In this document: positions 3,375-62,431 of the stretch, in pieces
Layout of the letters: each line of letters begins with the position of its first letter
How positions within the stretch are numbered: position 1 is the first letter of the stretch
Source: Crambe crambe
Lineage: Eukaryota > Porifera > Demospongiae > Poecilosclerida > Crambeidae
Assembly (NCBI GenBank): GCA_963924555.1
Contig: OZ004589.1
Location: 1,860,001 to 1,924,000 of the forward strand
Length of the DNA stretch: 64,000 bases
Direction: 5' to 3'
Translations under genes and position numbers: made by a program
The notes under the pieces: generated by a model
What the model was told of the DNA's origin: nothing
Seen by the model: the letters and a program-made list of their open reading frames with translations, nothing else
The model's database searches: none

Positions 3375-5057
3375 ACACTTTTTTTGACCCATTATATTAT
3401 TGACTAACTGCAGCAGTAAAGTTTACTGTCTAGTCACTAATGATGTTGCATATTAGTGGCTGCATTGTTTCAAGTCATTGCACATTAGTGACTGCATTGT
3501 TGTTTGGCCACAACATGTATAGAATCAAAACCTTCATGAATATCATTACAGCTCATCGGGGTAGTCATCGATGCAAAATTTTGAATCCCCCCCATCCCCC
3601 CCCCCCACTTTTAGGGGTCCTCAGCCACCCCTGGTATGGTACAATAGAAAGTGGCTTTAGATGCCATTTGTCTTCATTGGAGATTCTATACCTCTTCACC
3701 TGATGATCTTTCAGATATTTCCTGGAAGTCTGCTACCACACACATTTTCTGATCCTGATGACTCCAGGGGTATGGTGGGCCGTACAGAGGTGGAGTGTCG
3801 TGGGGAGTATGTTCAAATAATGGAAGAAAAAATCTGCTATTTTTAGTTCAACTAGTCAAGCAGTGTCTGCACAATGTCCCAGAAGAAAGGCCAATCACTG
3901 AAGAGGTGCTGGAGAGACTTCAAAGGATAAAGACAGAAGTGGAGGGAGTGTATGGCGGGAGTTTTGTGAAGTTAGATATCAGCAGAGTACTTCTGGCCAA
4001 GGAGATGAAAATGAAGGACAGAAAATTGAAAGAAATGGCGGTACATAGCTACATAAGCTAGACAGAATGACATAGTTTCCTCTTTGCAGGAGAACCTTGA
4101 AGCAACACTAGAAAGAATGGATCATTTATCTAGAGAGCTTGAAGTAAGACTATAGAGTTAGCTAGCTACCACTTTAATCATCCCTTCAGTCAGATGATTG
4201 GATGAGCGAAGTAAGCCCCACACTATAAGGACTCAGCAATATTCATATTGTTCTAATGCTTTAATGATGATACTCATTGGGTGACTCAGAATATGTGCTC
4301 GCCCCACAATGCTTCTCTGTGTTCTAGGCAAGTCGAGAGAAGCAAGAGCAATTAAACAAGGATACAGAGGACTATGCAAGAGAGTTTCAACAGCTGCAGA
4401 GAACTATAGAGGTGAAAAATAGAGAGCTCCAACAGAAGGATCAAGACATAGAGGTGAAAGATAGACTGCTCCTACAAAAGGATCAACACATACAGTGGCA
4501 AGATAGACAGCTCCAAATGAATGATAGACAGCTCCAAAAGAAGGAGCAATGTTTAGAGATGAAAGAGAGAGAGCTCCGAAAGAAGGATGAAGTCATAAAG
4601 GGAAAGGTGAGGATTAATAATTATGAAGGCCAACCATCATTCTTCCATATTCTGTCCACAGTTTTTATTCCCCTTGCCATGTTCAGCAGGAGAATGCAAA
4701 CGAGAAGGATATAGTAGTCTGGATGGTTTCTGTCCAACTTGCTACAAGAGAAATTCATTTAAAATATTATCTTGCAAAGAATCAAGGTGCTCATTCAAAG
4801 GATATATGAGGCTGGATGGCTATTGTCCACATTGCTTCAGTACTCGTACTCCTATGGAAGTTCATCCTTCTAGATTTGATCTTCTAGACAACTATCCTCT
4901 TATAGTAGTGATACCGGATGCTATGGTGGGCGGGGTCAATTTTTTATACGTAAAGATAATACTGCAGGACGGCACCAAAAGTGACCAAGATATAACCTGG
5001 CTGCGAAGGTCCAGATCCAAAGAAATCCAGAAAAAAAGCATATCAACAGAATCCTAA
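2289..5057 (+). pseudogene. Protein kinase with coiled coil and A20-type zinc fingers, damaged
   Basis: Exon 2289-2426 has the glycine loop (GTGSYGSVEE). It joins the exon from 2510, which carries the ATP-site lysine region (CAGKKFH), the catalytic loop HRDLTTNN and a DMG in place of DFG. Later exons: 3715 to about 4040 (C-lobe end, QCLHNVPEERP), 4090-4143, 4328-4606 and 4662-5057 (TAA). The 4328-4606 exon is a coiled coil with a 14-residue repeat (LQQKDQDIEVKDR type). The last exon holds two C-x4-C-x11-C-x2-C fingers, the spacing of A20-type ubiquitin-binding fingers. Damage against the second copy (7617-9360): about 8 codons missing before RSVLED, the frame after SFGHL lost, and about 10 bp missing near 3840 that shifts frame before VQLVKQ. 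The 3' half stays open. Probably a decaying kinase, though a spliced variant could still be expressed. Confidence 0.6.
3339..3380. repeat. poly-C / (CA)n microsatellite
   Basis: A run of about 20 C is followed directly by about 9 CA units and a T tract, inside the degraded kinase intron. Confidence 0.9.
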
Positions 5058-6430
5058 TATTCTAGAGAATCTAACTGTGACAGTTTCTTTTAGATATAGT
5101 GCTAAAATTAGATTTGATGTTCAAAAACATATTTAAATTTCGATTTTCTTATGATATAACGCTTGAATAGGTCATGAAACCATATTTTTTGGAAACTTCA
5201 TCAAAAACTGATTCTGGTACCTTGGATAACTTCTTGCATCAAGCGGAAAAGAAGGCACGCAAGAAGGATAAGGCATTCAACTTATATAACTGATAGGTCA
5301 AAGTTCACGACCTCAACCCTTTCCCGCTAAATTTGAATCTGTGCTGCCTCAGGTGCCTCACCCCCATAGTACACATTTTAATGTAAAATAAAAGTTGTGA
5401 AAAAGGTTTGAATTCTGAATCAATCTCTGAACAACACAAATCAGTTCTGGCTGTGGAGTCATAGTTGATTAATGCTGCAGTCTGAATTCCTTAATAACAG
5501 CAAAGCTCTCAGATCCTGTACATGACTTTGAACATCAATCACTGTCCACTGCAAAGCTTGGAAGCAGAAATTGCAGGTTTAATGCCACAAATTCTAAAAT
5601 ATAGCAAAGCCGTAATACAGTAAATTTGAAATGAGCAACCAAAACACGTTTTAGATGGGGAGGGTAGGCCTACTCAAGTTCCTAACTTTGTCAATGTTGT
5701 GTACATTCAGAACAGGGACAGACTCTAGGACAAATTAACAACGATTGTACAACAGTTTCTACTAGTCTGGTGTAGTCCAGACTACATGGCCTTTTTTTAT
5801 AATTTACCCTTAGTTCTATACTCACTTTCATACTCTTCCATATGAACTTTGTTTGAAGAAAATCCATCCAGTAGATCCTAAGATACGAGCAAAAGATTGC
5901 AGTACTATTAGCCATTATGACCTTTAACCTACTTGGAAAGGTGCCGTTTTTTTAATTAAAAGAAAGTAAAATTTTCCTGTACAATTTCAATTGTAAATGT
6001 TACGTATCTCTGCTTCTACTGGATGGATTTCTATCGGATAAAGTTTATCTGGCTGAGGAAAGAGAGCTTAATATTTTTAAGAAATGAATTTATAGTTTCA
6101 TAGTATTTTTAAAAATAGCCCGGTATCACTAAGTTATAGAAACAAAGTTTACGAAACTATGAAACACAGAAAAGCACATGGCTCAACTGGTTTTTGGCAT
6201 ATCCTCAAGACGCTAAGACTGGATGGTAACTTAATAAGTCCATTCAAGCATTTATGATTGAGCCTGAGCGAGCCCCACACTAGCGGGTTGGTGTAGAAAA
6301 ATTATATTGAGATATATATATCGTACGTTCTATTAACGTGGTTTTCATTCTTTGCGACCATCGGGTATGTCCTTGCGCATGCGCGCCTAATGACTGGTTC
6401 AATCTTGTTTGTTCACTTGCTAGCTAGCTA
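5058..6430. other. Intergenic, no gene seen
   Basis: AT-rich sequence between the kinase gene and the STPR-repeat pseudogene. Reading frames here are short, without motifs or matching splice sites. The kinase 3' UTR probably occupies the first few hundred bases. Confidence 0.45.
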
Positions 6431-9551: not shown

Positions 9552-12500
9552 TTACAACTCGTCTTTCTGTCCTTGTTCCTCTTCCTCCTCTCCAGATTCA
9601 CCCTCTTCCTCTTTACTCTCCCCTTCTTCTCCACTCTCACCTTCTTCCTCCTCACCATCCTCTGACTCAAACTAAAGGAAACAAATACTCTAATTACTCA
9701 CCACACTTAAGGTCGGCCTGCATACTGTCTTAGCAGGTTGTGGTTCAAAACACAGGCCCTGAATTTATATGTTTATAACATGTAGAATGTACGAGAGTTC
9801 TCTGCTCATACATCCAACACATTTTTAAGGAATCTGAATTTTGTCTTGCCCAGCCAGTTCATGCAAGGAGTGTTATAGTATTAACAAGTCTTTTATGGAA
9901 ATCGGCTTAAATCACTCTAATAAAATCACTAAGTGTTACTAACAAAGTATTCTCCCTTACATACCTCTTCCCCATCATCTTCTTCATCATCCTCACCAGC
10001 CTCTGCCTCTGCAGCCTTGGCAGCTTCTTCAGCTTTTTTTCTTTCCTCCTCATCTTGCTACACCAAACAGAAAGGGGGTATAAAGGATGTTTTTTTATTT
10101 TTTTATTTACATGATTCACTAGGGATATTCGTATGAGTCACTCTTTGGTCTTTGTGAAAAAAAAAAAAAAAAAAAAGTACAAAATATTTTGTTCAAGAAT
10201 GATCAGTCCAGTTGATGGAATGTTATGCCAATGTTGGTAACCACTTCTTGATCACACTTGACCAATATCCTACTAACTGTTGTACTCAGAAACAAAAGGA
10301 TAGCTAGCATCTCCCAAACATTACTCGTTAAGCTCACCTTGTCCTTCATTGCCTTTTCGGGGTCTTTGGTGGCCCCCCATGTTTCCTCTCCAAATTGTGC
10401 AGCATATTCTTCATCGTCTGTGATCAGAATGTTGTCAAAAATGGTGCCTGATTTTACCTGTGGATAACCGGTAAGCTCATCATTATGAATAGATGGTTGG
10501 CAGTAACGAACTACAAAACTCTCTTTAGAGGTAAAAAAATCGTATAAGATAATAAAATAGTAACTTTAGGCCTAAAAGGTTGTGCTCAAGACTTCACTAT
10601 AATAATTGAGATTTTAGGGAAAGATGACAGTGGCTAGCATTGGAAGAAACATGAATCAACCTGTGTACAAGTATGCACACTCCTCATTCAAGGGACTTTC
10701 TTGAGGGTACACATTGAATTCCTATTTAGTGCACACCTACCTGCCATAAGTCAAACCCAATGGAACCAAAGTCGTCGTACTTATAGAGGTTTTTGTCTGG
10801 CTCGTATTCGGGGTTATCAATCTGAGGGTGGACCCATTCCCCTTTGTAGTTGGGATTGTCAATCTGTGGTGGTTTCCAAGGACCTGAAAAAAAAGAAGAA
10901 AATATTCATTTCAATGAAGGAAGAGGATTATTAGCCAAGTAAAAAGAGTTTATACACCAACAAGTAACAACAAAACATACAGAAAAGATAATTTTAAAGA
11001 CTACAGCGAATCTCCTAATTTGTAAATGCTGGGATCACTTTGCAGTATGTATTAATTCACCCCTATGAGGATACCTCTTTAATCAGGACAACATTTAGAG
11101 GACTTTTGCCCTTCACATTTAGCCATTGTCCTTAATCAGAACACCATATATTTAGAGGTTACCCTTAGAACACCACATTAGAAGTTGCCCTTAATACCAC
11201 ATTTAGAGCTTGTCCTTAATCAGAACGCTGTTCCACTGTTATGTACTCACCATTGTAGTCAGGGTTGGGGATCATGGGAGGTTCCCACTCTCCGTCCAAG
11301 TCCTCGTCCCAATCCTCTGGCTTGGTGGCATCAGGATCTGCAATGTACTCAGGCTTGTCCCAATCCTATATACCAACAAAGGATGGAACGGTTTAAACCA
11401 CCTCCATTGTAATTGTCGAAATGGTCATCTCTTACATTGGTCCCTGCCTTGTTAGTGCTTTCCCCGTAAATAAATTCATGCAAGGCTTTAACATCATGTT
11501 AACACTGCTAATCATTTTTTGATAAAAAACATTTATAGTAGAACCCCTATATGTGGATTTCCTGAAATGTAATCAGGACACTTTTTCTTGTCCCAACACA
11601 ATATAATTTAACCCCTGAAATAGGGACACCTCTCTAATCAGGACACTTCACTGGTCCCAAAGGTGTCCGCATTTAAAGGTTCCACAGCACATATACCAGC
11701 CCCAAGGGAAGGCCACCCTGTTTGGATAAAGGTGATTAATGGAATGATTTTTTCACGAATCTACTTGGCACCATACATCGTGAATTCCACTTTCCATTAC
11801 TAAGTCTTACTTCAGGCTTTGTAGCCTCGGGGTCGTCGATCTTTGGCTTGTCATCCCAGTCTTCTGGTTTCTTTGCCTCTGGGTCGGGGATGGTCTTTGG
11901 TGGCAAAAAGTCCCAATCCTCTTCCAGCTTGCCACTGCCAATCTCCTTGTTGTCAATCTTCACTACGTAGGTGTTGTCAGGCTTCAGGACAAGGGTGTAC
12001 AGATGAGTCAACTCATCATCCTGAGAAATGGGAAGAGATGGGTAAAAGCCAGTGATTACACAATTTCTTTTAGAGGCAGAGATCACTTCCCTATCAAGAC
12101 CACTTTATTGTGGCCCAGAGGTGATCGCTATAAGCAGGTGCACCGATACTGAGACAACCTCAATATTAAGACCAATTTTGGGTGGTCTTACTAGTTTGTA
12201 CAAGTTCTCCCCTGACAATTAACAATTACACACCTTGCATCGCAGATCCTTCTTAATTAGCAGGTTCTTCCCCTTGTAGTTGAAGATGACATGGACTTTC
12301 TTTGTTCCTGGACCACAGATGTCAGGGCCAAACATGATGTTGTAAGGGGATTCCCCATCCATCTTCTCTGGCTTCACAGTACTAGGGAATATCTACCAAA
12401 TAAAAAAAACGAAACCAGTGAAATAACTTCCTGCTTATACCAATTGTAACAGCACAAGCAGGATGAAGAGAACAGCTGTTACAGTTTTACTACTAGCAAA

Positions 12501-14377
12501 GCATTATGGTGAGTGAAGTTTTAGCCAATGCTGTCACCATATCCCACCGGGAAGAACATTTAGTACCCTCCAGGCTAAACATGCCGTCCTTGATCAAGGA
12601 AACGAAGGAAAAGTGTGGCCGACAGAAGAGAAAGACACAATTGAGGAAATGTTACAACACTATGTCCAACAGACACCAAAAGACCAGACACCAACTGAAG
12701 CAGAAACTAACTTTGCATGATTAGTTCCTTGTCATCCTAGGGCTTAATTGCTTGACCTTTGATGGGGTACTAATCATCCTCTCTTCTTCCTTTCTTCTCT
12801 GCTCTTATCATAAACTTTAATGTGAAAGATTAATAGGATGCAACCAGTTTGTGTAGTGTTGCAAGATAAGTTCACACAACCATACGTCACATTATGAATG
12901 AGAGAGATGAATAGTCACTACAACCAGCAAAAGAATATTATACACACCTGCAACACTACTCACTCTAAGAGAAATCAAAAAGCAATTGTCCACACCTGCA
13001 ACACTACTCATTTTAAGAGAACTCAAGGCACTATTTATTATCCTGCTCAAAGCCAGCTACCACAGGATTGTTGAGTTAATAGACTGCAATGCTCAGTTGC
13101 CAATGGTATGGTAATGGTCACCACGAGAATGCTCAGTCATAATCACAAAAAAACAAAAACAAAAAACGCACAAGATATACTGATACATGTACATACATTG
13201 ATGTACAACAATAAAGATACACGAGGTTTACCACCTACACTGATCGATACAACATTGGTGGTTGGTTTCACAATGCCCACACAATAGGTGAATGGTTGCA
13301 GGTAGGCATCTCTACAGAGCAGAACCCAACCAGAATAGCAACAAGTTTGGGGAACAACCAGTGACCACCTTTACTCGGAGTCACAGGTTCAGATTAGATA
13401 AATCCTTCTACTATGGAAATTCATTCTTATTTGGGAAGAGTTACTACCATAAAGCCACCCTTTCTCTTAAATAACTATTATCCTTGGTTTGAGTGTTCTT
13501 TTTCTTTGAAACTAAGTCTTGCACAAAAAAATAACATGTACAAGTTTTCAATAGCCAGATGTTTAGTTACCTTTCACTTCATCACCACAGAGCTTATCCA
13601 AATGCATTAGCAGATGTTCAGCCCTCTAATGTGAGCAAATCTCGTACCCACTATCCTGTACCACCAAATCAACACTTCAGGCCTCAAGTTGACGCACTAC
13701 TCAACCCTGTGCCTGTATACAGTTTACTCCCACTGGGGCCACATGTACCCATATCTCAAAGGACTACGACCAAAATTTCCACTATTTTGAGCACTGCTAC
13801 TACCACAATTTTATCCTGCATCAGGACCTACTATTACTAAGGCTCAGTGCATTCACCAAGGTCTCACCTTCGCATAGCCACCTCCGCAGTCAATTTTCTG
13901 CTCATGCTTGACAGTGAACTGAACAACCAAGGTCTTGCCTTCATTTGAAAACTTGTCATATGTGGCCGAGAGAGCATAAAACTTGGCATCTTGCGTTGTT
14001 TTCAGTCCTAGATCAGGAATTGAAAAACAGTAATTTTTGACCTATGGTTCTTTTTACCCACCTTTGTCTAGTTCTGCATCACCATAGAAAGCTCCAGCTG
14101 AGATGTCAAACTTTCCATAGTCTGACTTCGCCTTGGATAGTGTCCATCTATCTGCAAAACTATCTGCAAGGGGAAATGGTCAGTTCAATTGACTCCTGTC
14201 TGCCAAATACATAGTACGGCTATCATATATAGCAAAAAAAAAAGTAACACCAACATCAAAAAAAAATACACCACTTTTGCTTCAATTCTCACCTGTTTCG
14301 AATTTTTCCATGAAGTAGATAGTTGGATCAGCTAGTGCTAGACCCACTAGTGCTACCAGCAGGTAAATTGACTGCAT
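9552..14377 (-). CDS. CALR: Calreticulin, ER calcium-binding lectin chaperone
   Basis: Ten exons (minus strand): 14377-14293, 14163-14062, 14007-13868, 12392-12234, 12020-11811, 11365-11251, 10883-10741, 10457-10338, 10057-9965, 9671-9552. All have GT-AG borders and the phases close, giving 428 aa. Seen: a signal peptide ([16 protein letters not shown]), the N-domain signature [12 protein letters not shown]-domain repeats ([26 protein letters not shown], then [11 protein letters not shown] and [10 protein letters not shown]), and a Glu-rich calcium-storing tail ending KDEL. The protein folds glycoproteins in the ER lumen by binding monoglucosylated glycans and buffers calcium. The start is fixed by the signal peptide. 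A TATA box and an ER-stress-like element lie just upstream, shared with the divergent SelJ-like gene. The 1.5-kb intron 3 holds only non-coding sequence. Confidence 0.97.
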
Positions 14378-14637: not shown

Positions 14638-17345
14638 ATGGGGGTGAAGGAGTTGCTAGCAGAGGCCAAGGGTTTACCTACACCTGAACAAGTCAGAGTG
14701 GCTGCCATACTGGGTGCTGTTGTAGCTGATGCTGCATGTAAGTGTGCCTATATAAAACTTACTTCCCGAGTGTGGTGAGATCTCAGCCTAGTCTCGTGAA
14801 CCAGCCCGTTCTATAGCTATCATCCGGGCGCCCACTGGCTTGAGCCAAACAAAAGTAGTTTGCTTGAGGAAGTTCTAATATCAAACATGGCTTATTTCCC
14901 TTGTAGGATTCTATAATATACCTGCAAAGCACATGATCACGTAATTGAGCCCCAGGGCTCATAATCATATCAGATTCTATTCCCTGAAATACTAGTTCAA
15001 CCTATACACTGGATCTACAACCAAGATGCCATGAAGAAGGCAGTTTCTGGATGTCCGGACGCACCCGAATTCCTTCCCATTTCAGCAAATCCATTCTATT
15101 GCATTCCAACTGGTAATCAGAGTCTCTATGGAGACCAGTTGTTGGTCATGCTGGAATCACTAGTGGAGAGCAAATGTAAGGAGGAATCAAATAATAGCTA
15201 AGAAATTTGTTAAAGGAAATTTTTTGTGAGCAAGTCGTAACTCTGCTCATTATAATGATAGTAGCTAGATATTAGTTTTTCATCTTTTAGCTACAGTCTT
15301 TAATTAAAATGTGACCCATGCCAATAAGGGACTTCAGACATTCTCATTTAGAAGGGATTGCAGAACATATAACACCATCCTCTCTTTGTCTAGACCTCAA
15401 CAAACAATACTTTTTTTTTAAAAATCTATGCGTATTAATCAGGGTGAGTCCAGTGACTCTCACAGTAGGGAATTGGTCAAGGAACTCTATTGTACATTAG
15501 ACTATAGCTAGTCACATGCCAGTTACCTGATTGGTCAGTTAGGGGGACTCTAAATCCGGTAGAGTCCTACTGAGCGGGTTCTCTAAATGCTGCTGGCACT
15601 TAGAAAATCCGGTAAAGATGGTCATTTCAATTGGTCCAATTCTAGCAACGCATTGCGGTGGCCACAGTTATTGTTTCTAGGTGTGCTCTGATTCATGTTT
15701 GTTGCATTTAAAAACCATGGTTATTGTTTCCAAGTGTGTGTTGAGGTAAGTTAAACAACTCCAGTGATTGATTATAGTCTAAATAAGTTAGACACCTCGA
15801 CCAACGGGATCTATGGCCTGTTTAGAAACCCTTGGGCCCTTAGTAGCGCCCTTGCTGCGCTCGGGACGCTACAGCCCAGGGCTTTCAGGTTTCTAAATAG
15901 ACCATAGATCCCTTGGTCTCGGTGTCTAACGTATATTTATTATTGTAGTTGTTATTGACTGCACATGCCACAACTAAGTAAATCTAAATGATTTCCCCTC
16001 ATATTACAGGCTTTAATCCCAAAAATAGTGCCGAGAAGCTTTTCCAGAACTTCGGACCAAATTCACCATATGATCGCAGTGAGCAATCCAAGCTTTACTC
16101 AAAGGGTATGAAGGACAAATCTATGTACCCAATTGACGGGAAATGGCAAGGATTCCTCCTTCGCCGGTTTGTAAAATGCTACTCTGAAGGAAAAACTGTC
16201 GAAGAAGAGCACGAGTTAGATGACACAAATGTAGATCCCGATAACTTGGTCCGCAACATCCCCCTGACTCTACTACTGGCAGGGAAGCCAGAACTTCTTG
16301 AGACTCTTCGCGAGTCCCTTTTGCAGATGCAGACCAATGATATGATGATTGTTGTTGGAATGGCAGTATCGAGACTCATCGAGCGATACATTCTAGATGC
16401 AGCCGATCCACAGAACCCTGATGATGTTGTCCATCCTTTGAAGCGAGTGATAGAGGATTTGAAATGTCCCGATCGAGCCTGTGCTGACTCTTTGGACAAA
16501 GGCATGGTGTCTCACTTGAACGAGGTGCTTGAGAACAAGACTTTGAGTATCCCCGATGCTCATGCCAAATTCGGAATCAGCTGAAGTAAGTTATTAGATA
16601 TTAGTGTAGCTATGCTATATATCTGAGACATTTTGGTAGACTTCATTGATTAGCCATACCTTTGTGTTTTCTACTTATCTATGGTTCCCCTCTTCCTCCT
16701 CCCCTCCTCCCCCCTCCCCTCCTCCCCCTCCCCTCCTCCCCTTGCTTGATTAGTGTGTGAATACTTATTATATTTGCAGCTAGACTAAAGTTCAACAGCC
16801 TTCCCCGGCCTGAATGTTACCTTTCGTATACTTGTGACTAATTACCACCCGGAAATAAGGACACCCCTCCTTGGTATAATAATAGTCATGTTAAGGATAT
16901 CATATAATTTGAGGTTATATTCAGTGTTTCCCCCAAAGAGGGGTCCTTCCTCCCAAACTCACCCTATTTTCTAGCTTCCTCTAAGCTGATAGTAACTCCA
17001 TGGTTATAGTGCACACAGTGAGGGCTACTCCTCGGTAGCCACCCCTCCAACTCCTTAGCTATTGATTTCCTCATGGGAGAAGTGCTATTATTTGGTTTGC
17101 TCTTCCATGCAGACATGCCTGGGTCGGTCCAGTCGGCTATTCACGCCATGCTGGATGCAACCGACTACGTGGGGACCATACGGAAAGTGGGATTGGTGGG
17201 AGGGTGCAACTGCTCCAGGGTGTCTTTGGTGGGGGCATGTCTTGCGGCAAAGTTCGGCCTCGAGGCCATTCCTATTGAATGGATCGAGAAGACTGATGCA
17301 GCTGAAAGAGCCCTTTCTTTGGCTCTCAAACTGGTCAAATTTTAA
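14638..17345 (+). CDS. SELENOJ-like: Selenoprotein J / J1-crystallin-like ADP-ribosylglycohydrolase family protein with in-frame UGA (Sec)
   Basis: Four exons: 14638-14737, 14996-15175, 16010-16585, 17113-17345. GT-AG borders and phases agree, giving 362 codons with TGA as codon 285 (16582-16584). Family signs: GAVVADAAFQPIHWIYN near the N-terminus, ISANPFYCIPTGNQSLYGDQ, and a C-terminal GGCNCSRVSLVGACLAAKFG, all typical of J1-crystallin/SelJ members of the ADP-ribosylglycohydrolase superfamily. The TGA sits one base before a perfect donor (GTAAGT), and the next exon continues with NMPGSVQSAIHAML, where relatives have Cys before a similar NPGS motif. So TGA stands at a Cys position. Read as a stop, the protein would lose 77 conserved residues. 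A SECIS-like hairpin follows the TAA. Function is unknown for the family; a catalytic redox role for Sec is inference. Confidence 0.85.
15787..15930. mobile_element. 144-bp foldback element in SelJ-like intron 2
   Basis: Both ends start GTTAGACACC and the arms (to about 55 bp) read the same on opposite strands, with GATCTATGG in each. The centre is a short GC-rich loop. No coding capacity. Confidence 0.65.
16683..16744. repeat. Polypyrimidine CCCCTCCTCC repeat in SelJ-like intron 3
   Basis: About 60 bp of near-pure C and T in irregular CCCCTCCTCC units, roughly 100 bp after the exon that ends with the UGA codon. Confidence 0.85.
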
Positions 17346-17408
17346 ACCCCCATATTTTATTGTAACTGCAGTACACAATAACTATGGTAACTGTGAATCA
17401 AGTAGTTC

Positions 17409-17501
17409 ATAATGTACATCGATTTTTTATGATGCCCGAAAACAAAACTTGCAATTGGTAAGTGTTGAGGGCTGATTTTTTATTAATTCTTTGTACTTTA
17501 T
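17409..17501 (+). promoter_or_regulatory. SECIS-like element (form 2) in the 3' UTR
   Basis: Starts about 64 bp past the TAA. Visible parts: helix I, ATAATGTACA (17409-17418) with TGTACTTTAT (17492-17501); the non-Watson-Crick core, ATGAT (17429-17433) against TGAT (17473-17476), giving the U.U, G.A, A.G, U.U quartet; helix II, GCCC/GGGC, a GA-rich internal loop, then AAC/GTT; unpaired AAA (17444-17446) on the 5' side; a six-pair mini-helix ACTTGC/GTAAGT (17447-17452 with 17458-17463) closed by AATTG. The spacing of ATGA to AAA (11 nt) fits eukaryotic SECIS rules. It would recruit SBP2 to recode the UGA at 16582. Confidence 0.8.
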
Positions 17502-20961: not shown

Positions 20962-21738
20962 CTATTTTAATTGCAACCTCTTCATCCCTCTATCCAGTAA
21001 CCTGTCGGTCTCTTCTTCATCACTGCACACTGGAGTCCGAAAAGACACTTCCACTATCTGTGCTGTTATCATCAAGGATGTAGTAAGGTTCAGAAGGTTG
21101 ATTGCGACAGTCGTAACCCAATTCCATGCACTTTTGACAGCGCTCAGTATCATGAGGATTTTGAACTGCTCTTGATGGCTTCAGTGGCCGAACATCTGAT
21201 GGCATTACTTCACTTTCACATTTCCTACACTTTTGCCATTTCTCAATCCACGTGTTTCCACTTACCCAACTGTGACCACAGCTGCAATTATATTTACCAA
21301 ACATTCTCGTGTTTAGATCCTGCACATATTATAAATATTCAGCATAACTATAAGTATTTCCTTAATTTGAAGCTGATTTACCTTTCTTTTGACATGTCTT
21401 TTTTTGTAGGGTTCGATAAGAGGCTCCCTACAATTAAAGCATTGCTTTGGTTCAGCCTCTAGATGGATACTCTTCCATTGTTTGTCACAATCAGGACACT
21501 TGTACTTGAAAGTCCACTATGACAGTGTATAAAGCAATTATCAATACAGTCATAGTAGAGCTTCAGCTATGTATAATACCTCATTCTCATAACCTTCAAC
21601 AGCTTCATCTTGATCTGGTCTCAGCTTGTAGGGATCAATAAAACTCTTCATACATTTTAAGCACTGCTTTGCAACACCAGAAGAGCGTCTAAACTTCCAT
21701 TTGTAGCCACAGTCTGGACACTTATACTTGGCTACCAT
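20962..21738 (-). pseudogene. Zinc-ribbon / 3CxxC zinc-finger gene, copy 2, truncated
   Basis: Three exons remain: 21738-21580 (MVAKYKCPDCGYKWK, a CxxC-CxxC ribbon), 21516-21382 (second ribbon, WTFKYKCPDCDKQW) and 21319 downward (YNCSCGHSW, GNTWIEKWQKCRKCE, the 3CxxC finger). Against its paralogs the last exon lacks 52 bp of the Ser-rich tail at about 21040. This shifts frame and ends the protein at DSSVQ (21020) instead of LQLK (20962). I found no short first exon (MAE-type) upstream. Might still make a shortened protein; most likely decaying. Confidence 0.6.
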
Positions 21739-25700: not shown

Positions 25701-28700
25701 ATCTCATGCTCAACTGGTGACATGGATTTTGGAGCTGTGGGCACAGGTTCTTGAAGTGCTACATGTTTAGCACTTGTAACTTCAGAATCAGAGACTCCAA
25801 AAAAGATGACTGATGCAGTGCTTATATCAAGAGAACCTTTGTCCATTGCTTCATCAAAGATATGAGTAGCTTCACCTATGTAAGGTTAACAAAACAATGA
25901 AATCTTAATTTTTCAATGGGTCATTAATCAATAGCTTACCTCTAGCTTTCTCTGAAGCCTTTTGTTTTTGGAACCACACTAGTTCAGACTTCTTGAGTTC
26001 ACCTACTTGTCGATTGCTACATTCACACATGTTTGATTCCAAAACTAACTTCTTCATGACATAGAAATGCTTTGTATTTGATGCTGAGCAACTGCTGTTG
26101 TTGCAAGCTAATGTTAAATCAAATTCTCTTTCTTCCAGCCAACGTGGTACTATTCGCTGAAGCTGCACATTTAATGTGGATAAAATATGGTAGTAGATAT
26201 CTTCACTCAAGATGGCATCATTGTATGAAATACAGTCAACTCGAATAAATTGGGAAAATTCAGTAAGTATCACACAGATACAGTCATTCACTATAAATTT
26301 AAACTGATTTCGGCAATATTGAACACAAGGTTTGCTATTTTCAAGTGGTATTCTCCATTTCGTGTTGCCGATAATAACTCCAGCTAATGCAGTTAACAGT
26401 CTTGTAAATATACCGGTAGCAATGTATTCAGATTCTGGAACAATGTACAAGGGGGATACAACACAGTCTAAATGCTCCAAAATGGCTCCATAATCATCCT
26501 TTGTGGGTACTGGCAATATCGAAGGAACGAAATAGCAAATCTCATGTCCTATTTTGACACTCAGATGATGTTCTTCTAGAAACTCCATAAACCAGGAATC
26601 ATCAATTTTAGATGGTTTCTTCTTGAGAAGGGATGTATAAAAGCTCATAGGCATGATTCCCTTCTCAATTAAACTGCTCCATTCTGGTTTAAGAAGTTTA
26701 GGATCATAACAAAACAAAGCAGCAAGCACTTTTAGCAAAGCTTTTGGATCAATTATTACAAAGTTTTTAATATTCTTTTTTTCAGATAAATGGTACCACA
26801 TGATCACACCAAGCTCATGAAAGTACATTAATGCTCCTTTAGGTTCCTTGACTTTGCACTCTTTGCCGATTGAAATAGCTTCATCTAATGGGAGAATACC
26901 AATACTGATACAATCAGTGTAGCACTTTCTTTGTAAGGCTAGTCTGAATGCTTGCCATGAGCGAGGAATTTCAATATCTGAAGACTCATTGGCACAAGTT
27001 GATATAGTGTTTCTAAGTGATTCTAGTCCTGAATCATTGACTTCCCTTCCTGATCTCGTATTATCAACTTTGTATACATAAGACTCTCCATATTGATAAA
27101 GTGATATGCTACTCTTGTTTTTGCTAGCAAACTGGCCAATATTGTGATCAATCTCTTGGAGAATTTCATCTGAAGCAGTTGTTTTATCTCTGTGAGTGCC
27201 AATGACAACAGCTGCAGTAGAAGCTTTTTGTGAATCTTTTGACTTCAACTGTTGAGGTAAGTTTAATTGCTTTCTTTGTGTGTTGTATGAAAATGCTTGG
27301 ACGAATGACAGATTACGGTACACTATATCTCTATTGGTGAAAGGAGATACAGTTGGTTCAAGTAAAGGCTTGCAGGGTCGGATTTCTGACTTCTCATCAA
27401 ATTTTTCCAAATCACTCAAACGGAAAACTATTCCATACATACACTTTAATCGAGCAAAGCAAGGCAGTAAATCTTGGAATATCGGTTGACCTCCAGTGTC
27501 CCACATGGTGAGAAAGATTTTACTTTGACAGTCTCTGGGTAGATCCAGTAATGGCTTGAAGGCACCTCCTGCAACAGATTCACGATAGAGGAATTCAGGT
27601 TCCATGACAATTGTGGGTCGTTCATTGTCATCTATAGGCTCATTCTTCAGATGCTTTCGGAGACTTGTCTTTCCAACACCAGTGTGACCTATCAGAATGA
27701 CATGAATTTGAACTTCATCTTTAACAAGATCACCATCAGCAGGAATTTTTATCAAGCCAATCCACGTCTTTTCCGTTTCTATAAAACATAATCGGTATAA
27801 TAAGTTTGGGGTGCCAACCACCACTATAGTATAGCACTTACCTAGTAAATGTTGAAGTTCATCAGCTAATTCTGAATAAGTATGAGGCCTGAACTGTGTA
27901 TCCTTAGAAAGCCACTTTTGTTCAATCATTTTCTTCAGAATATGTTGGCCAGGAATTTCAACATGGGAAGTACTACCACCACCACCACCACCACGAGATG
28001 AAATAAGAAGTATTATGTCCTTTATCCACAACAAGTCATCTAGTAGTAGTGACCCATGTTGATTATTGGGAATTTCTCCAACGAGTGAGTCACCATAAAC
28101 AGGAATGAATTTTGCTTTGTATTCAGCATCATCCTCTTGAATTAATATGTGGTCAGTGGACACCTTAACCTTATGGTTAAGCTTTTCAAATCTCTTTGCA
28201 GCACTTGCAATGTTCGAAAGGAGAGATATCTGAAGCAGATTGACACCTGATTCATCATAATTAGCGGGAAAAGTGATTTCTTTTAAAAATTTTAACTTTT
28301 CAGTGATTACCACAGGATATTTTTGAAATCCTTCTTCTTCTGGTGGATAGTACAACCCTTTAATAGATGGTACTTCTTTATGATCACGAATCAAAACTTC
28401 CATATACTCAATGTACTTGATATCAACCTCGGATTCTTCAGAAAACTGATTTGGATAAACAAGAGCCATACACTCCTCTCCCTGATGATGAGCAGATTTT
28501 ATAATCTTACCTTGTTTCTCATATGCTGGAGATGATTCTGTTGGAGGTAACGAGACATTTGTGAGAGTTTTCCAATGCTTTAGTACCACTTCATGGTCTT
28601 TAAATCTGTAAGATCTTACAGAAGTAGATTTAAAAGCTTCTATTTTCCTTGAATAGAGAGGTCGATACAGTAACATTTTCAAGAAAGAATTAGGAATTTG

Positions 28701-31700
28701 AACACGAACTATAACACTTCCTCCTTCAAACCCAACTGATAATATTTTAGTATCATCAATTCCTATATATTCACTCAGATGTAGCCTGAAAGTGAACAGG
28801 TCACCAATTCTGTACTGATCTTGATTTGCATCTATAATAAAAAGAATGCTAAAATGGTTATTAAGAACTGATGAATACATCTGGCTGCAATCAATTATTC
28901 TGCAATTGACATGTTTTTCAAAGCTATCCATGTAATCTTTTGCATTTCTTTTGTCTTGTTCAGATCCAAACCATGGAATAAGTTTCTTTACAAGAATGCC
29001 AAAATTTATGAAAGACTGATGCTCATAAATCTTTTCCAAGAGCTTCTTCACATCATTACTTGCCTTTACTTTGTTCCTAGTCTTAGAATCAATTGAAAAT
29101 ATATCAGATATCATGTGACACCGAAGCAAAAAATTCTCATCATTAGTTGTTTTTGATAAAGTTTCACAAAAATTATAAAGCAATTTGCTGAATTCCCATG
29201 TTATATCTTCTGTTTTTTTCTTTATTCGTGCTAAATAGCTTTGTTTAGGAGGCCAGTTAAATGCACCTTGACTTAGCAAGGATTGTTCAGTAGGGCAGAC
29301 TAATTTTTCAACTTTTCCTTTGGGGAGATAACATGTTTCAGATGATAAAATGCCTTTGTCTTCTTCTTGGGGGAGATAACATGTTTCAGAGGATAAAATG
29401 CTTTCATTTTCTTGCACATTACATGGTCTAGCTGGAATGTGGTGGTCTGCATAATTGTGATTGTTGAAACATAAATATACGTGTAATAAGTGTATGTACG
29501 TGTGATAAAAACATATGCAATTGATGTGTCAAATATAAAAGTACACCTGACGAAGTTTAGATACCTCAACCTTGCTATATGGAGGTATGGCAAGTGATGC
29601 ACAATGTCATACTACTCATATTGGCAGAGGCGATGTCATGTGACTTATATACAGTAGCCAGATTTGAGTATGTCCATGCAGTTCAAAATCATTGCAGTTC
29701 AATCACTCAGGGTTAAATTGCCACTTCATTATGTATGGGATCTGGAATTAAATTTTATGGTGTAAAGCCTACTGTCATAATTATTTCATCCTAACTTTAT
29801 ATCAGACCACCTGATAATCACATGGCTATCATGATAGATATTGCCACAATCAAGTAAACCTCACTGTTATTTTAATGTCGACCAGTAGCCATTATTTTAA
29901 ACTTCTCAAGGACTGTTTCTTACTCACTGTTATTATTGACATAAAGTTATAACACATACCAAGTAATTACAGGCATCCTAGAGCTTTATTCTTCCCATCT
30001 TGATCAGCAATAATACATTCTCAGCCATTGCTCAGAAAAATCAGTGAGGCTTGATGTACATGTAGCACTATTTATTATTGATGACCCTTACCCAATACAT
30101 GTATAGAGCTAGCTAGAGTGCCAGCAAGGGTAACAACCCTTACCTCTTATATGGGTTCCCGAAGCACAATTATAACGTCCAATCTCCCAGTCACTTGTTT
30201 AGAATAGGAGATTAGAGGTTTAGTGGTTCCAAACTCTAGTGCTTACTAGTGCACCAAATCAGTCAGTTTGCCGGTTTACCCCTACCCAGTACCTCCCATC
30301 CAATTAATGGTGCCCAGCATACATAGATTCATTGGACCAATAAGTAATATCCATGGATGATCCATTAATGGTACTTGGTACTGTCATATGGGTACCACTG
30401 GACACCAAATCGTTTATAGTGTACGTTCTATTATCTATGCATCTGCCTGACTCACCTGCTCTATGTCTGTTTGCAATCTCTTCAGCTTCAGCCCTGTTAT
30501 TCCCTCCAAGAGGATGTTCGACAGCATCAACCAGAACCTTCCAAGTTGGTGGCTTACGACTACTGTTAGGATAATTCCTATTAAGCCACTCCACAATCAC
30601 TCTCCTCATAGCCGCTGCTGCACTCAAATTTTCTCCATGAATTACTTCTAGTGTATTATTTGGCAGATCAAGTCTCCCACCTATTCCCTCATAACATGCT
30701 AGGACATTCTTCAGCTCATCCATTACTTTATTGACATCATCCAAAACTGCATTGGGAAGGGGGGGGGGATAAAAACAAACAAAATAAATGAACAACAACA
30801 AATAAACAAATAAACAAACAAAAAACCAGCTATAGAAATTCATTTGCTCAAACAGAAACTGAGTTCAGTCTTCTTGTTATAGCTACAACTATAGCCAGGG
30901 GTGAAAATGGATGCTCATCGATTTTAATTAATCACACAGCAATAGTGGGTTACACAGAGAAGTTGAATACTGAGGTATCTCACCAGGGTTTCATCTAAGG
31001 GGGGGGGGGGGGCACAGGGGAAGCTTCCCCCCAAACAGCTCAACTTCCCCCCCCTCCCTCCCCAAACTAACCTAACTTCCCCCCAAGGTATAAATTCAGA
31101 GTAGTAAGCATTTTTGGCTTCGCGCTTTGCATGGGAGTAGTCCCGCACCCTCCCCCTCGCTGTAGCCTATGGCCACGCGATCGGTGAGCTTCCCCCCAAG
31201 GTGAAATTCCTAGATGAAACCCTGCCCACCTACCTAAAATGGTGGTATTATCTGCATCAATACCTGCAAAGAGAGAAAGAGAGTAGTGATTGCCTGGTTC
31301 ACCACAAACCATCGTGTTAGGGTTTCTACCTCAAAACAATAACACAAAAACCGCTCATGCAGAAGAGAGAGCTATCCCTTTTCTTGAAGTAATTTAAACT
31401 CCGCTGGCACATGCCACTAAATTGAGTTATATAAATACTTACCAGGACCAGGGTTAGTTTCAACATCACCAGCTAATATCAATAAGAAGGAAGTCACCAC
31501 TTGATGATCAGAATAGTGAACAGTCTTAAGAACTCTTCTTCTTCTGTGGCACTTCCAGTTGTCTCTAAGAGGTAAAATCACGATGGAAACATTTTCCCTT
31601 GTGATAGTGCAGCCATTTTGATGACTAGTGCACATGGTACATGAGCAGTGTGGGCCATTACGAAAGCGAGTCTTGGTCGTCCCTTCAGATTCAGTCACTG

Positions 31701-33861: not shown

Positions 33862-34773
33862 CTATTTTAATTGCAACCTCTTCATCCCTCTATCCAGTAA
33901 CCTGTCGGTCTCTTCTTCATCACTGCACACTGGAGTCCGATCTTCGTCATTCCAATCTGTGAAAGAAGAAGAGCTGTTAGTAGATGCCTCAGAAAAGACA
34001 CTTCCACTATCTGTGCTGTCATCATCAAGATAGTCCGTTTCAGGTTCAGAAGGATGATCGCGACAGTTGTAACCCAATTCCAAGCACTTTTGACAGCGCT
34101 CGGTATCATGAGGCTTTTGGTCTTCTCGGACTGCTCTTGATGGCTTCAGTGGCCGAACATCAGATGGCATTACTTCACTTTCACATATTTGACACTTTTG
34201 CCATTTCCCAATCCACGTGTTTCCACTTGCCCAATTGTGACCACAGCTGCAATCATATTTACCAAACATTCTTGTGTTTCTTGTGTTTAGATAACTATAA
34301 GTATTTCCATAATTTGAAGCTCCTGCTTTACCTTTCTTTTGACACGTCTTTTTTTGTAGTGTTCAATAAGAGGCCCCATACAATTAAAGCATTGCTTTGG
34401 TTCACCCTCTGGACGGATACTCGTCCATTGTTTATCACAATTAGGACACTTGTACTTGAAAGTCCACTATAACAGTGTATAAAGCTATTATCAATACAGT
34501 CATATCAGAGCTTCAGCTATGCATAATTTATAGCTACCTTATTCTCATAACCTTCGACAGCTTCATCTTGATCTGGTCTCAGCTTGTAGGGATCAATAAA
34601 ACCCTTCATACATTTTAAGCACTGCTTTGTAACACCAGAAGAGCGTTTAAACTTCCATTTGTAGCCACAGTCAGGACACTTGTACTTGGCTACCATCTTA
34701 ATCTATATCAATGTAGCTAGTTTCATGACATTCAAGTCTAGTTAACTAATTGTACCTTTTTAGCTTCTGCCAT
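33862..34773 (-). CDS. Zinc-ribbon / 3CxxC zinc-finger protein, copy 3, acceptor damaged
   Basis: Exons: 34773-34756 (MAEAKK), 34696-34538 (ribbon MVAKYKCPDCGYKWK), 34466-34332 (second ribbon) and a last exon from about 34290 to 33862 (3CxxC finger, SFTDWNDEDRTPVCSDEEE, LQLK stop). Compared with copy 4, about 20 bp covering the last acceptor (TGTGCAG|GAT) is missing and AACACAAGA is duplicated. The nearest replacement AG near 34296 would put the last exon out of frame. So the last exon is open from ATG 34269, but correct splicing is doubtful. 3CxxC fingers occur in ZAR1- and RTP-type proteins, which bind RNA or assist receptor trafficking; the role here is unknown. Confidence 0.6.
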
Positions 34774-51494: not shown

Positions 51495-52417
51495 CTATTT
51501 CAATTGCAACCTCTTCATCCCTCTATTCAGTAACCTGTCTGTCTCTTCTTCATCACTGCACACTGGAGTCCGATCTTCGTCATTCCAATCTGTGAAAGAA
51601 GAAGAGCTGTTAGTAGATGCCTCTGAAAAGACACTTCCACTATCTGTGCTGTCATCATCAAGGATGTAGTCAGTTTCAGAAGGTTCAGAAGGATGATTGC
51701 GACAGTTGTAACCCAATTCCAAGCACTTTTGACAGCGCTCGGTATCATGAGGCTTTTGATCTTCTCGGGTTGCTCTTGATGGTTTCAATGGCCGAACATC
51801 TGATGGCATTACTTCACTTTCACATTTTTTACACTTCTGCCATTTCCCGATCCATGTGTTTCCACTTGCCCAACTGTTACCACAGCTGCAATTATATTTA
51901 CCAAACTTTCTTGTGTTTAGATCCTGCACATATATTCAGCATAACTAAGAATTCCCATGATCTGAAACTGCTTTACCTTTTTCTTGACACGTCTTTTTTT
52001 GTAGTGTTCGATAAGAGGCCCCATACAATTAAAGCATTGCTTTGGTTCAGCCACTGAGCGGATACTCTTCCATTGTTTGTCACAATCAGGACACTTGTAC
52101 TTGAAAGTCCACTATAACAGTGTATAAAGCAATTATTAATACAGTCATAGTAGAGCTTCAGCTATGTATAATTTATACCTCATTCTCATAACCTTCAACA
52201 GCTTCATCTCGATCTGGTCTCAGTTTGTAGGGATCAATGAAACCCTTCATACATTTTAAGCACTGCTTTGCAACACCAGAAGAGTGTCTAAACTTCCATT
52301 TGTAGCCACAGTCAGGACACTTGTACTTGGCTACCATCTTATTCTATGTCAATGTAGCTAGTTTCATAATATTGTCTAGTTAACTAATTGTACCTTTTGA
52401 GCTCCTCCTTCTGCCAT
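51495..52417 (-). CDS. Zinc-ribbon / 3CxxC zinc-finger protein (type A), intact
   Basis: Four exons: 52417-52394 (MAEGGAQK), 52337-52179, 52111-51977, 51923-51495; all phase 0, 248 aa. Exons 2 and 3 each encode a CxxC-CxxC ribbon (KYKCPDCGYKWK; KYKCPDCDKQWK). The last exon encodes a 3CxxC finger (YNCSCGNSWASGNTWIGKW, QKCKKCE, VMPSDVRPLKPS, RCQKCLELGYNC) and a Ser/Asp/Glu-rich tail ending LQLK. 3CxxC fingers are the core of ZAR1- and RTP-type proteins. With two extra ribbons the build suggests nucleic-acid or protein binding; the exact role is not known. This looks like the intact model for the broken copies at 20 and 34 kb, and it sits directly upstream of a type-B sister gene. Confidence 0.8.
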
Positions 52418-53633: not shown

Positions 53634-54528
53634 CTACTTTAAGTGCATTGACTTTAACTTGTCTTCTAAGAACCTGTCAGCCTCTTCTTCATCACTGCAC
53701 ACTGGGGTCAAATCTTGGTCACTCAACTGCTGATCCTCTGCAAAAGAAGAAGAACTGGCAGTAGATGCCTCTGAAATGATGCTCTGATCATCTGGAAAGT
53801 CCACTGTGTCTGGATCATCTTTAGGGGGGACATAATTTCGACAGTTGTGACCCAATTCAATGCATTTTTGACAAAGATCAGATTCATGGGGTTTTTGAAC
53901 ATCAGTGAACCTTCCCGAGGGTCTCAATGGCCGAATATCTGAAGGCATCACCTTTTCTCCACATTTGAGGCATTTTTGCCACTTTCCAACCCACGTGTTT
54001 CCGCTGGCCCAACTGTTACCACAGCTGCAGTTGTATTTGCCAAACTTTCGCTTAGCCTGTAGATCCTACAATTATTACAAGATCAATTATATCTACGTAG
54101 CCTGGAATACTGTACCACTTTTAACTAACTACCTGCCAGTTAGCTAGCTATAGCTCCCTCACCCTAGCCAATGCCCACCATATTATATAGCCAAATATAG
54201 TTATAATCATAGGCAGGGCATTGGGCCCATAGGTTCCTCTGCCTATGATATAATGTAAGATATAATGTAAGCCTTACCTTGTCTTTGACAGGTCTCATCT
54301 TGTAAGGCTCAGTGAAGGAGCCCTTACAATTCAAGCACTGCTTAGAGCCACCAGAGGAGTTAACACTCTTCCATTTCTTGCCACACTCTGGACACCTATA
54401 CTTGGCTACCATCTACATATAGGCGCACCACACAAGGTCTTTTTTTTTTTTTCTGGGCAAAAGAACAAGAATGACATTACCTTTTGATTGGAAACAAATA
54501 TACTAGCTGCCTCTGTTTTTTCTGCCAT
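53634..54528 (-). CDS. Zinc-ribbon / 3CxxC zinc-finger protein (type B), intact
   Basis: Three exons: 54528-54481 (MAEKTEAASIFVSNQK), 54412-54278 (one ribbon, KYRCPECGKKWK...QCLNC), 54065-53634 (3CxxC finger YNCSCGNSWASGNTW, QKCLKCGEKVMPSDIRPL, LCQKCIELGHNC; acidic Ser-rich tail; SMHLK stop). Phases are all 0, giving 204 aa. Compared with type A it lacks one ribbon exon. The stop is fixed by sequence; the start follows the MAE-type first exon seen in the sister genes. Only the last 46 bp of its duplicate remain at 36910-36955. Function unknown. Confidence 0.8.
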
Positions 54529-55954: not shown

Positions 55955-58075
55955 TTAAAATGCTTGAATACGATGGTTTTTTGTGTCACACACATAGACC
56001 ACACCACTCCTGTCTACTGTTATGCCACATGGAAACATAAACTCTCCTGATCCACTCCCCAGCCCACCAAATGATGTAATAAACTGACCCTCAGAGGTAA
56101 ATACAGAGATGCGATGATTACTGTACCCCTCACAGACATACACAACATCATTAGCATCCACAGCGATATCCATCAATTCAGTCAGTTGCCCCCTGCCAAC
56201 ACCATGTCTTCCAAACATCCGCAAGAAACGTCCCTCGGCTGTGAAGACTTGGATGCGATCGTTAAAAGAATCAGCCACGTAAACATTCCCAGCGCTATCA
56301 AACCCTACACCATGCACACCCTTAAACTGTCCCTTGCCACTGCCATACTTCCCAAAGGCACTGTAATAAGTGAGGTCAGAGTTCAAAATCTGAACACGAT
56401 AATTACCACTATCTCCAACATACATTTTATTATTAGTCGCATTAAATCCCAGATAATAAGGTGCGTGAAGTTGCAAAGGACCTTTACCAATTGTTCCAAT
56501 TACTGAAATGAAGTCATCATTTTCAGCGAACTTCTGAATACGATTACTTAGAGTATCTGCCACAATGACATTACCCTCACTATCCACTGTCACCCCACTA
56601 GGTTGTTTAAACTGTCCCTGACCAGAGCCATGTGTGCCAAATGACCGAATCCTCTCCCCACTGGGACTAAAGATGGAGATGCAATGTTTACCACGTTCCA
56701 CTACCACCACCTCTCCTCTCTGGTTGAGTGCCACTCCTATTGGTGTATCCACTCCACTGATAGTTAGTATTGGAGTGCCAAGCTTCTCGAGAGGCAGCTT
56801 TGCAACTATAGAGAATGGACTCCCCTGGATGTGGGCATCTGCAACTTTAATGCTCAGCTGGTGTTTCCCTTTGATAGTGGGCCGGTAACTGATTTGATAT
56901 TCATGAAGTCCCTTCCGTTTGAAAGTGCCTCTCTCAGTAGTACCTGTCATCTCAGACACAAGCTCGCACTGCAATGAATTGATTGACTTCATACATAGCT
57001 CACCTTTATTCATGAAACTACAAATGACAGCAGTAGACTTTTTCCCAACTACAGCCTCTTCCAAACCTTTACTTGTGATCTGGAATTTCGATTGATCAGG
57101 TGAAAATTCTACTTGTCCATAATTTCGACACTTTGCAGTCATGTCTTGGGGGACTATGAATTTCATGTCTGCTTCAGTACTAGGCTCACTCATGTCTGGG
57201 TGTAAAGGTGCAGTCAGATTCTTCATTTGCTTCACTATGTTTGTCTTCATCATCAGCACTTCTCTTTGATTTCCTGTCTTTAGGCTCTCTTTAACGAAGT
57301 TCAGACAACTGCTCAGCTGAGTCAGGATGGTCTCAATCTGGTCTCTCTGGACTGAAAGTTCCTTTAACTTCCTCTGAGTGATTTGATCCAATTGACTGAT
57401 AAGCTCAGTCTTCCTGACGTCCAGGACTTCATGGAGTTGTCTGAAGGTGCTATGTATGTTGGCTTCGATAGCTTCTCGTTGGACAGATATCTCCCCACAA
57501 CGCTTGTCCAACTGTGCAAGTGCTTCCTTGACAGTCACCAGTTTCCCCTCCATTGGCTCGAGTGATGGTGCAATCTCACCCTTGTACCTCTCAAATGCTC
57601 TGTCCAATACATAGTGATCGTGAGTATGATGCTTCCCTCCTTTAATGGCACATTCATAACAGATCAGGTCTTCACACGTCTCACAGTAAAGCTCTCTCTC
57701 TTTGTCTTTATGTTCGAAGCAATTGACAATGTTCTTCATTTTTGAAGGAATGGGTTGTGTCACGTCAGTTTTCACCACCTCTTTACTGGCTGCTGTATCT
57801 TTAGCCTTCTTGTGATTTTCCAAGATCTCTAGGAGGGGGGTGACTTGAAAGGCTGACTGGAGACCTGTCACTCCATTGGCTGGAACAGGTGTGACCTGAC
57901 GACAAGATGGGCAAGTAAGGGAGAGTTGTCCCTGCTGGTCTCTGACCACGAGCTTCACAAGGCACTGCCTACAGTAGATGTGGAAGCATTGGAGTAGTTT
58001 AGGGTCAGTAAAGGTGTCCAGACAGATGGCACAATTGAGTTGATCTTCCAGTTTCTTGATGGTATTTTCAGCCAT
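55955..58075 (-). CDS. TRIM-NHL protein (RING, B-box, coiled coil, filamin, NHL), copy 1
   Basis: One intronless frame of 706 aa from ATG 58075 (MAENTIKKLEDQLNCAICLD) to TAA 55955-55957. The upstream seven codons lack ATG, and the same MAENT start occurs in copy 2. Domains: RING (CAICLDTFTDPKLLQCFHIYC, then CPSCR; about 18-70), B-box 2 (CFEHKDKERELYCETCEDLICYEC; about 120-160), coiled coil (about 165-290), filamin-type Ig (about 325-425, ending GSPFSIVA), six NHL repeats (GVALNQRGEVVVVE, NRIQKF and so on). The plan matches TRIM2/3/71-type E3 ligases, which ubiquitylate partners or bind RNA through the NHL propeller. Tandem with copy 2; specific target unknown. Confidence 0.92.
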   Translation of the reverse strand: MAENTIKKLEDQLNCAICLDTFTDPKLLQCFHIYCRQCLVKLVVRDQQGQLSLTCPSCRQVTPVPANGVTGLQSAFQVTPLLEILENHKKAKDTAASKEVVKTDVTQPIPSKMKNIVNCFEHKDKERELYCETCEDLICYECAIKGGKHHTHDHYVLDRAFERYKGEIAPSLEPMEGKLVTVKEALAQLDKRCGEISVQREAIEANIHSTFRQLHEVLDVRKTELISQLDQITQRKLKELSVQRDQIETILTQLSSCLNFVKESLKTGNQREVLMMKTNIVKQMKNLTAPLHPDMSEPSTEADMKFIVPQDMTAKCRNYGQVEFSPDQSKFQITSKGLEEAVVGKKSTAVICSFMNKGELCMKSINSLQCELVSEMTGTTERGTFKRKGLHEYQISYRPTIKGKHQLSIKVADAHIQGSPFSIVAKLPLEKLGTPILTISGVDTPIGVALNQRGEVVVVERGKHCISIFSPSGERIRSFGTHGSGQGQFKQPSGVTVDSEGNVIVADTLSNRIQKFAENDDFISVIGTIGKGPLQLHAPYYLGFNATNNKMYVGDSGNYRVQILNSDLTYYSAFGKYGSGKGQFKGVHGVGFDSAGNVYVADSFNDRIQVFTAEGRFLRMFGRHGVGRGQLTELMDIAVDANDVVYVCEGYSNHRISVFTSEGQFITSFGGLGSGSGEFMFPCGITVDRSGVVYVCDTKNHRIQAF

Positions 58076-58885
58076 GATAATGCAGCATAGCCACAATAAT
58101 TATGAATTAGTGAGAATTGAGGGTTGTTTAAATACTTAGCTATATTTACCCAAGGCAATTAGCTATAGGGAATCAGTGTTTGCTATAAAACAGAAATAAT
58201 AAATAACAGTTTTCCCAAACACTTTAAAAGTGAAAGTGTGTACTACATTAAGAGAAAGAGAGGTGGTTGTGGAAAGTGGGCTATGTAACTTCAATGTATT
58301 TGGGGAGGAATATACTGAGCTCTCATATCAGCAAGCTCTGCTGCAGCCACCAGAATCCAGCACACTATCCAAATATCCTCTGCACTACATCTTGCACCCG
58401 CTATTAGTATATTGGTAGTAGTCCAGTGAGGAATGCTCTCTGTAAGCTATGTTATAGAGAACATTCCTTTGGCTAAAGTATACACTCTTGTTTATATACT
58501 GCAGTGTATCGTGAATTGTACACTAGCTACGTAAATAGCTATACATTCAAGCTTGCCAAACAAACAATTTCATGGCTGCATGCTTTGGTAAATAGATAGC
58601 TATACTTCATGGCAAACTCAGCCATCTCACAGCACAGATCATGTGATCATCACCTGATCTGCTTTTTATTGTAGTATAGCTAGCTAATGGAATTAGCTAA
58701 GTGAACTAATGATTGCTATTACACTGGAATTAGATTTACACAAAGTTCAAAGTACAAAACAGTAGCTACCACAAACAGTAATTACTAAAATAAATGGAAT
58801 GATAGTTAGTAGCTATTGATGGGATTTAGCTACATTGTTTTCCGAGTCACTTGTATCAGAGAGTGCGGTAGCACTCTCTATGTAG

Positions 58886-62350: not shown

Positions 62351-62431
62351 AATAATTATAGCTACTGACATGCATTTGTGAGAAAATGAAGGTCCTTTAA
62401 TAGTAAATACAGATTGTTTATCCGTACTCAT

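Follow-up and report, generated by a model that had tools for sequence, protein, structure and literature searches.

SelJ (SELENOJ) was reportedly described by Castellano in 2005 as a protein resembling J1-crystallins and ADP-ribosylglycohydrolases, with a UGA-encoded selenocysteine (Sec) and a SECIS in its 3' UTR. Among vertebrates, it has been reported from fishes (PMC3316567). It is also reported from amphioxus, and the accessible part of the 2012 animal survey lists none for the sponge Amphimedon queenslandica (PMC3473315). Algal SELENOJ has been described with Sec at the position that it shares with animals (PMC7539508). For another sponge, Cliona varians, a transcript was published with 'Selenoprotein Jb; J1a crystallin' as its best match, and Sec is not discussed in the available text of that paper (PMC4144087). 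We found no earlier report of a sponge Sec-SELENOJ in the open-licence literature. Here we describe a new gene of this already known family in a stretch of 64,000 nucleotides from the sponge Crambe crambe (the window). Judged from its sequence, it is very probably a four-exon SELENOJ in which the UGA at codon 285 is read as Sec, giving a protein of 362 residues.

A four-exon frame with a single TGA

The four exons (Table 1) join into a single frame of 1089 bases, or 363 codons with TAA as the last, and the sole break in this frame is the TGA at codon 285 of 362. The TGA is followed by a single base (A 16585) and the donor GTAAGT at 16586; the acceptor of the last intron, ...TTCCATGCAG, ends at 17112. 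The sequence-only reading had named the TGA, the donor one base on and the 77 in-frame codons thereafter, and its coordinates are exact. Each junction has GT/AG ends and falls in phase 1, and we infer that the last one is spliced in this way; when exon 4 is translated in its three frames, family sequence is seen in the joined one alone. The Pfam domain PF03747 (ADP-ribosylglycohydrolase) matches residues 22-339 of the joined protein over profile positions 1-285 of 287 (E 2e-22), and thus spans both sides of the TGA. When the sponge's own genome (143 Mb, 119 contigs) was searched with the joined protein, all four exons were found in order on contig C12, and five weaker matches lie on contig C18. 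Solved structures gave only weak matches (best E 0.0033).

Upstream of SELENOJ, in the opposite direction, lies a calreticulin gene (window 11736-14377, minus strand; PF00262 E 1.9e-21 for one exon). Its start at 14377 (ATG confirmed, first exon by eye) is about 260 bases from the SELENOJ ATG at 14638. Small ORFs with a 3CxxC zinc ribbon (PF17180) and a weak ZCCHC24-like tail are repeated on the minus strand of the window, which also holds ORFs of ROCO and TRIM-NHL type. In a scan of 30 loci out of 121 Peptidase_C1 matches, no variant with a Ser active-site motif, which we take to be of silicatein type, was seen among the 23 hits listed (some loci overlapping).

Table 1. Positions of the SELENOJ features and of other ORFs in the window, with the evidence for each.
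Feature	Position	Strand	Evidence
SELENOJ exon 1	14638..14737	+	ATG start, phase-1 donor GTAAGT; 94% match to residues 1-35; joined frame
SELENOJ exon 2	14996..15175	+	PIHWIY ... YGDQ region; joined frame, comparison with P0001, own-genome protein search
SELENOJ exon 3	16010..16585	+	ends with codon 285 TGA and one base; joined frame, own-genome protein search
In-frame TGA, codon 285, proposed Sec	16582..16584	+	Cys at this codon in P0008, P0024 and both C18 paralogues
SELENOJ exon 4	17113..17345	+	77 codons past the TGA, GGCNCSR motif, TAA 17343-17345; PF03747 E 1.5e-5 (exon alone)
SECIS-like core	17429..17476	+	ATGAT / helix / AAA bulge with mini-stem / TGAT; pattern scans; Rfam SECIS_1 17421-17489
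PF17180 ORFs	21020-21325, 33862-34269	-	Pfam-tested (two)
PF17180 ORFs	51495-51929, 53634-53951	-	by eye
Large ROCO-type ORF	25905-29417	-	Roc GTPase match; COR-A just below cut-off
Two similar adjoining RING/B-box/filamin/NHL (TRIM-NHL type) ORFs	55955-58096, 60212-62431	-	Pfam on the second only

Codon 285 and the sequence on either side

The strongest single result comes from the sponge's own genome. The matches on C18 are two tandem J1-crystallin-like genes on the minus strand at about 82.3-85.7 kb (within C18:80500-87500). In these paralogues, the exon before the PGS block ends in GGC CTT GCT TGC C/GTAAGT and GGC CTT AGT TGC T/GTAAGT, and the equivalent place in SELENOJ reads GGA ATC AGC TGA A/GTAAGT. 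Codon, phase and intron position are identical in all three genes, with TGC (Cys) opposite TGA. The alignment of codon 285 with the Sec/Cys column of the family, which the sequence-only reading had put forward as a check, is therefore exact. Cys is also found there in P0008 and P0024, two further homologues that extend beyond the column, so that the in-frame UGA stands where non-Sec homologues have Cys; P0002 has Trp in the column, and its sequence thereafter is unrelated to the family.

A search with the full-length protein gave eight homologues, among 7999 scored candidates sharing most words. Five of them (P0001, P0003, P0004, P0005 and P0006; 47-65% identical) terminate one residue before the column; their stops are placed from the ORF ends, so that each may be TGA, TAA or TAG. 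The closest, P0001 (65% identical), is uninterrupted across the junction of exons 1 and 2 and at two intron positions altogether. Its contig is no longer than 1171 bases, and P0001 is therefore probably a spliced transcript; it ends at the column nonetheless. P0007, from Diadema antillarum and crystallin J1A-like by name, ends near the column, with final residues that align poorly. A search with the C-terminal part returned 15 ORFs, namely the window's own (P0009) and 14 foreign ones that keep the sequence past the TGA at 51-80% identity. Seven of these 14 begin at the Met of MPGS, one has an internal start and six carry extra upstream residues; in four of the six, a D precedes the block, as expected from an AG/AC acceptor. 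The column residue is not certain in the two most distant, P0022 (53%) and P0023 (51%), though P0023 would have Ala there if its coding sequence is contiguous. A third search covered residues 262-362 alone and returned one protein, P0024. Scanning viral contigs and genome contigs with the C-terminal alignment gave one distant relative each (29% and 32%); neither scan turned up DNA from the near relatives. The former is encoded at 5001-5225 of a 179 kb IMG/VR viral contig, and is 29% identical to the C-terminal part of SELENOJ.

The shared end of five homologues would also fit a true stop, at which UGA terminates without Sec insertion; the product would then be a truncated protein of 284 residues, and exon 4 a relic or the whole gene a pseudogene. 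We consider this highly improbable. A common end at the column is what is expected when ORF calling meets Sec genes, and these records thus illustrate how such genes are truncated in databases. Furthermore, the conservation of the post-TGA sequence in the 14 foreign ORFs argues against a relic, the frame has no second lesion, and the PF03747 domain would be cut ahead of its GGD.D-type motif. Removal of the TGA by splicing has an equally slim chance. A GT at 16547, which is 39 bases before the donor in use, preserves the phase; splicing from it would take out 13 codons, the TGA among them, without shifting the frame, and connect the remainder to exon 4. However, by eye this donor (TGA/GTATCC) is poorer than GAA/GTAAGT, relatives conserve the residues that would be skipped as far as the column, and the corresponding donor is GTAAGT in each of the Cys paralogues.

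A SECIS candidate and the decoding machinery

A SECIS-like hairpin (AUGA/AA/UGA core) begins 84 nt 3' of the stop and reads ATGAT-GCCC-GA-AAAC-AAA-mini-stem-GTT-GA-GGGC-TGAT, a layout that presumably belongs to the SECIS class with an apical mini-stem. The scan used simplified published patterns (RTGA, 9-13 nt, AA or CC, paired arms, TGA) and was designed with the SELENOJ candidate in view. With the canonical pattern, it gave a single match at or below -5 in the first 1 kb of the SELENOJ 3' flank, scoring -10.3 kcal/mol, and this element is the top of nine canonical matches at or below -6 on both strands of the whole window. With a relaxed NTGA core, it ranks fourth of seven window matches at or below -9. 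Fifty other loci of the same genome (132,435 distinct bases, about 265 kb over both strands), which are gene-bearing and not a random sample, held one canonical and two relaxed matches that were equally good. Given this rarity, a chance match of the same quality within about 300 nt 3' of the stop would be expected in less than 1% of cases. Rfam SECIS_1 scores the element at 16.8 bits (E 3.6) against a gathering score of 35, and taken alone this match would be at chance level; the window has no Rfam match at gathering scores. Plain folding of the region is unremarkable (z -1.59; 15 of 200 shuffles equally good). Across the whole genome, SECIS_1 gave no match, but the controls also went without a match, so this is not evidence of absence. 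In the stretches examined 3' of the Cys paralogues, 371 and 1001 bases long, no SECIS-like match reaches -5 or lower. Core pattern and rarity thus argue for a SECIS in the 3' UTR of SELENOJ, with the Rfam score below gathering.

Components for reading UGA as Sec are present in the same genome. A tRNA-Sec scores 71.6 bits against a gathering score of 47, with four more matches below gathering, and the eEFSec domain is found with E 1.2e-25, with one TAG in the matched stretch that we take for an intron. For SPS, there are three single-exon matches below the family cut-off; the peptide upstream reads LKG-TGA-GCKVP, with the codon confirmed as TGA. No clear SECIS was seen for SPS, the best candidate scoring -8.2 with the relaxed core and Rfam giving no SECIS match. 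A GPx exon has a TGA in its usual motif (NVASQ-TGA-GLAQKNY), and the GPx 3' UTR carries a SECIS-like element of -10.9 in the relaxed scan, which at 20.3 bits likewise stays below the Rfam gathering score; a second GPx gene match is without TGA and has one TAG in its stretch. The TGA of a SelW-like exon also stands in its usual motif (NA-TGA-GYLPRY), with a downstream SECIS candidate of -6.8 in the relaxed scan.

Near-cognate readthrough of the UGA without Sec, for example as Trp or Arg, could draw on the Trp of P0002, but it is the least probable explanation of all. P0008, P0024 and the own-genome paralogues have Cys in the column, SELENOJ is followed by a SECIS-like element whereas the examined flanks of the Cys paralogues gave none, and the genome has SelW-, GPx- and SPS-type TGA exons elsewhere.

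Thus, at the sequence level, decoding of codon 285 as Sec is supported by a frame conserved on both sides of the TGA, by the Cys of the paralogues, by the SECIS-like element and by genes for part of the Sec machinery. UGA 285 would be decoded by tRNA-Sec and eEFSec, directed by the SECIS of the 3' UTR. The sequence-only reading had proposed just such a gene, a SelJ with Sec and a SECIS of its own, and had seen a hairpin with the SECIS core behind the stop; the former claim is supported by the present data, and the latter hairpin proved to be the best canonical match of the window, albeit below the Rfam gathering score.

Possible function and relation to known systems

A tree separates SELENOJ and P0001-P0007, including P0007 of Diadema antillarum, from the two Cys paralogues and P0008 (split 94/92). 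It has 11 rows, with P0024 and fish SelJ left out, P0008 on a long branch and a root for drawing only, and two of its eight inner branches reach the full mark. The tree is compatible with an old split of Sec and Cys lineages, without proving it. The sequence-only reading had further inferred that this gene, in a sponge-like genome, moves the Sec form back to the root of the animals. This is only partly new: in its favor, the accessible part of the 2012 survey has Amphimedon without SelJ (PMC3473315), but a Sec-type SELENOJ is already on record from algae (PMC7539508), and the evolutionary surprise is for that reason modest, as far as the available text of that report goes. What is added is an early-branching animal in a family reported, in the sources at hand, from fishes, amphioxus and algae. 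Since Sec and Cys paralogues occur in one genome, the choice between Sec and Cys can be compared within one organism.

The predicted product, of 362 residues, would have an ADP-ribosylglycohydrolase/J1-crystallin fold. In an ADP-ribosylglycohydrolase of the same genome, the sequence GGDTDT represents what we take to be the metal-binding motif (GGD-x-D) of that family. SELENOJ lacks this C-terminal motif and reads GGCNCS in its place, and is therefore probably not a metal-dependent ADP-ribosylhydrolase. GGCNCS starts at residue 315, which puts the two cysteines at Cys317 and Cys319. As a guess, Sec285 could carry out thiol/selenol chemistry, perhaps together with Cys317/Cys319; alternatively, the protein may have a structural, crystallin-like role. 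The predicted structure of the Cys homologue P0008 is too poor to place Sec285 (mean pLDDT 54.3). It is conceivable, though on balance rather unlikely, that an ancient pair of Sec-SELENOJ and Cys paralogue was retained in early animals, and that the metal site of an ADP-ribosylhydrolase was converted, along the Sec lineage, into a selenol/thiol cluster of Sec285, Cys317 and Cys319. If true, such a cluster would give this fold a redox active site that has so far gone uncharacterised.

Compared with the canonical ADP-ribosylglycohydrolases, such as the gene on contig C15 of the same genome and others, SELENOJ has the Pfam family PF03747 in common. The C15 exons read YTDDT and GGDTDT, whereas SELENOJ has YGDQL and GGCNCS (the N-terminal pairing by eye). 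The C18 Cys paralogues encode a related protein and share with SELENOJ the position and phase of the intron after the Sec/Cys codon. In contrast to SELENOJ, they have TGC for TGA, GGDNCS or AGDNCS for GGCNCS, additional introns, and no SECIS-like match in the 3' flank examined. The likeness to the SelJ proteins of fishes, amphioxus and algae lies in the family description and the reported distribution. Set against the definition of SelJ attributed to Castellano 2005, the gene of the window agrees in each point.
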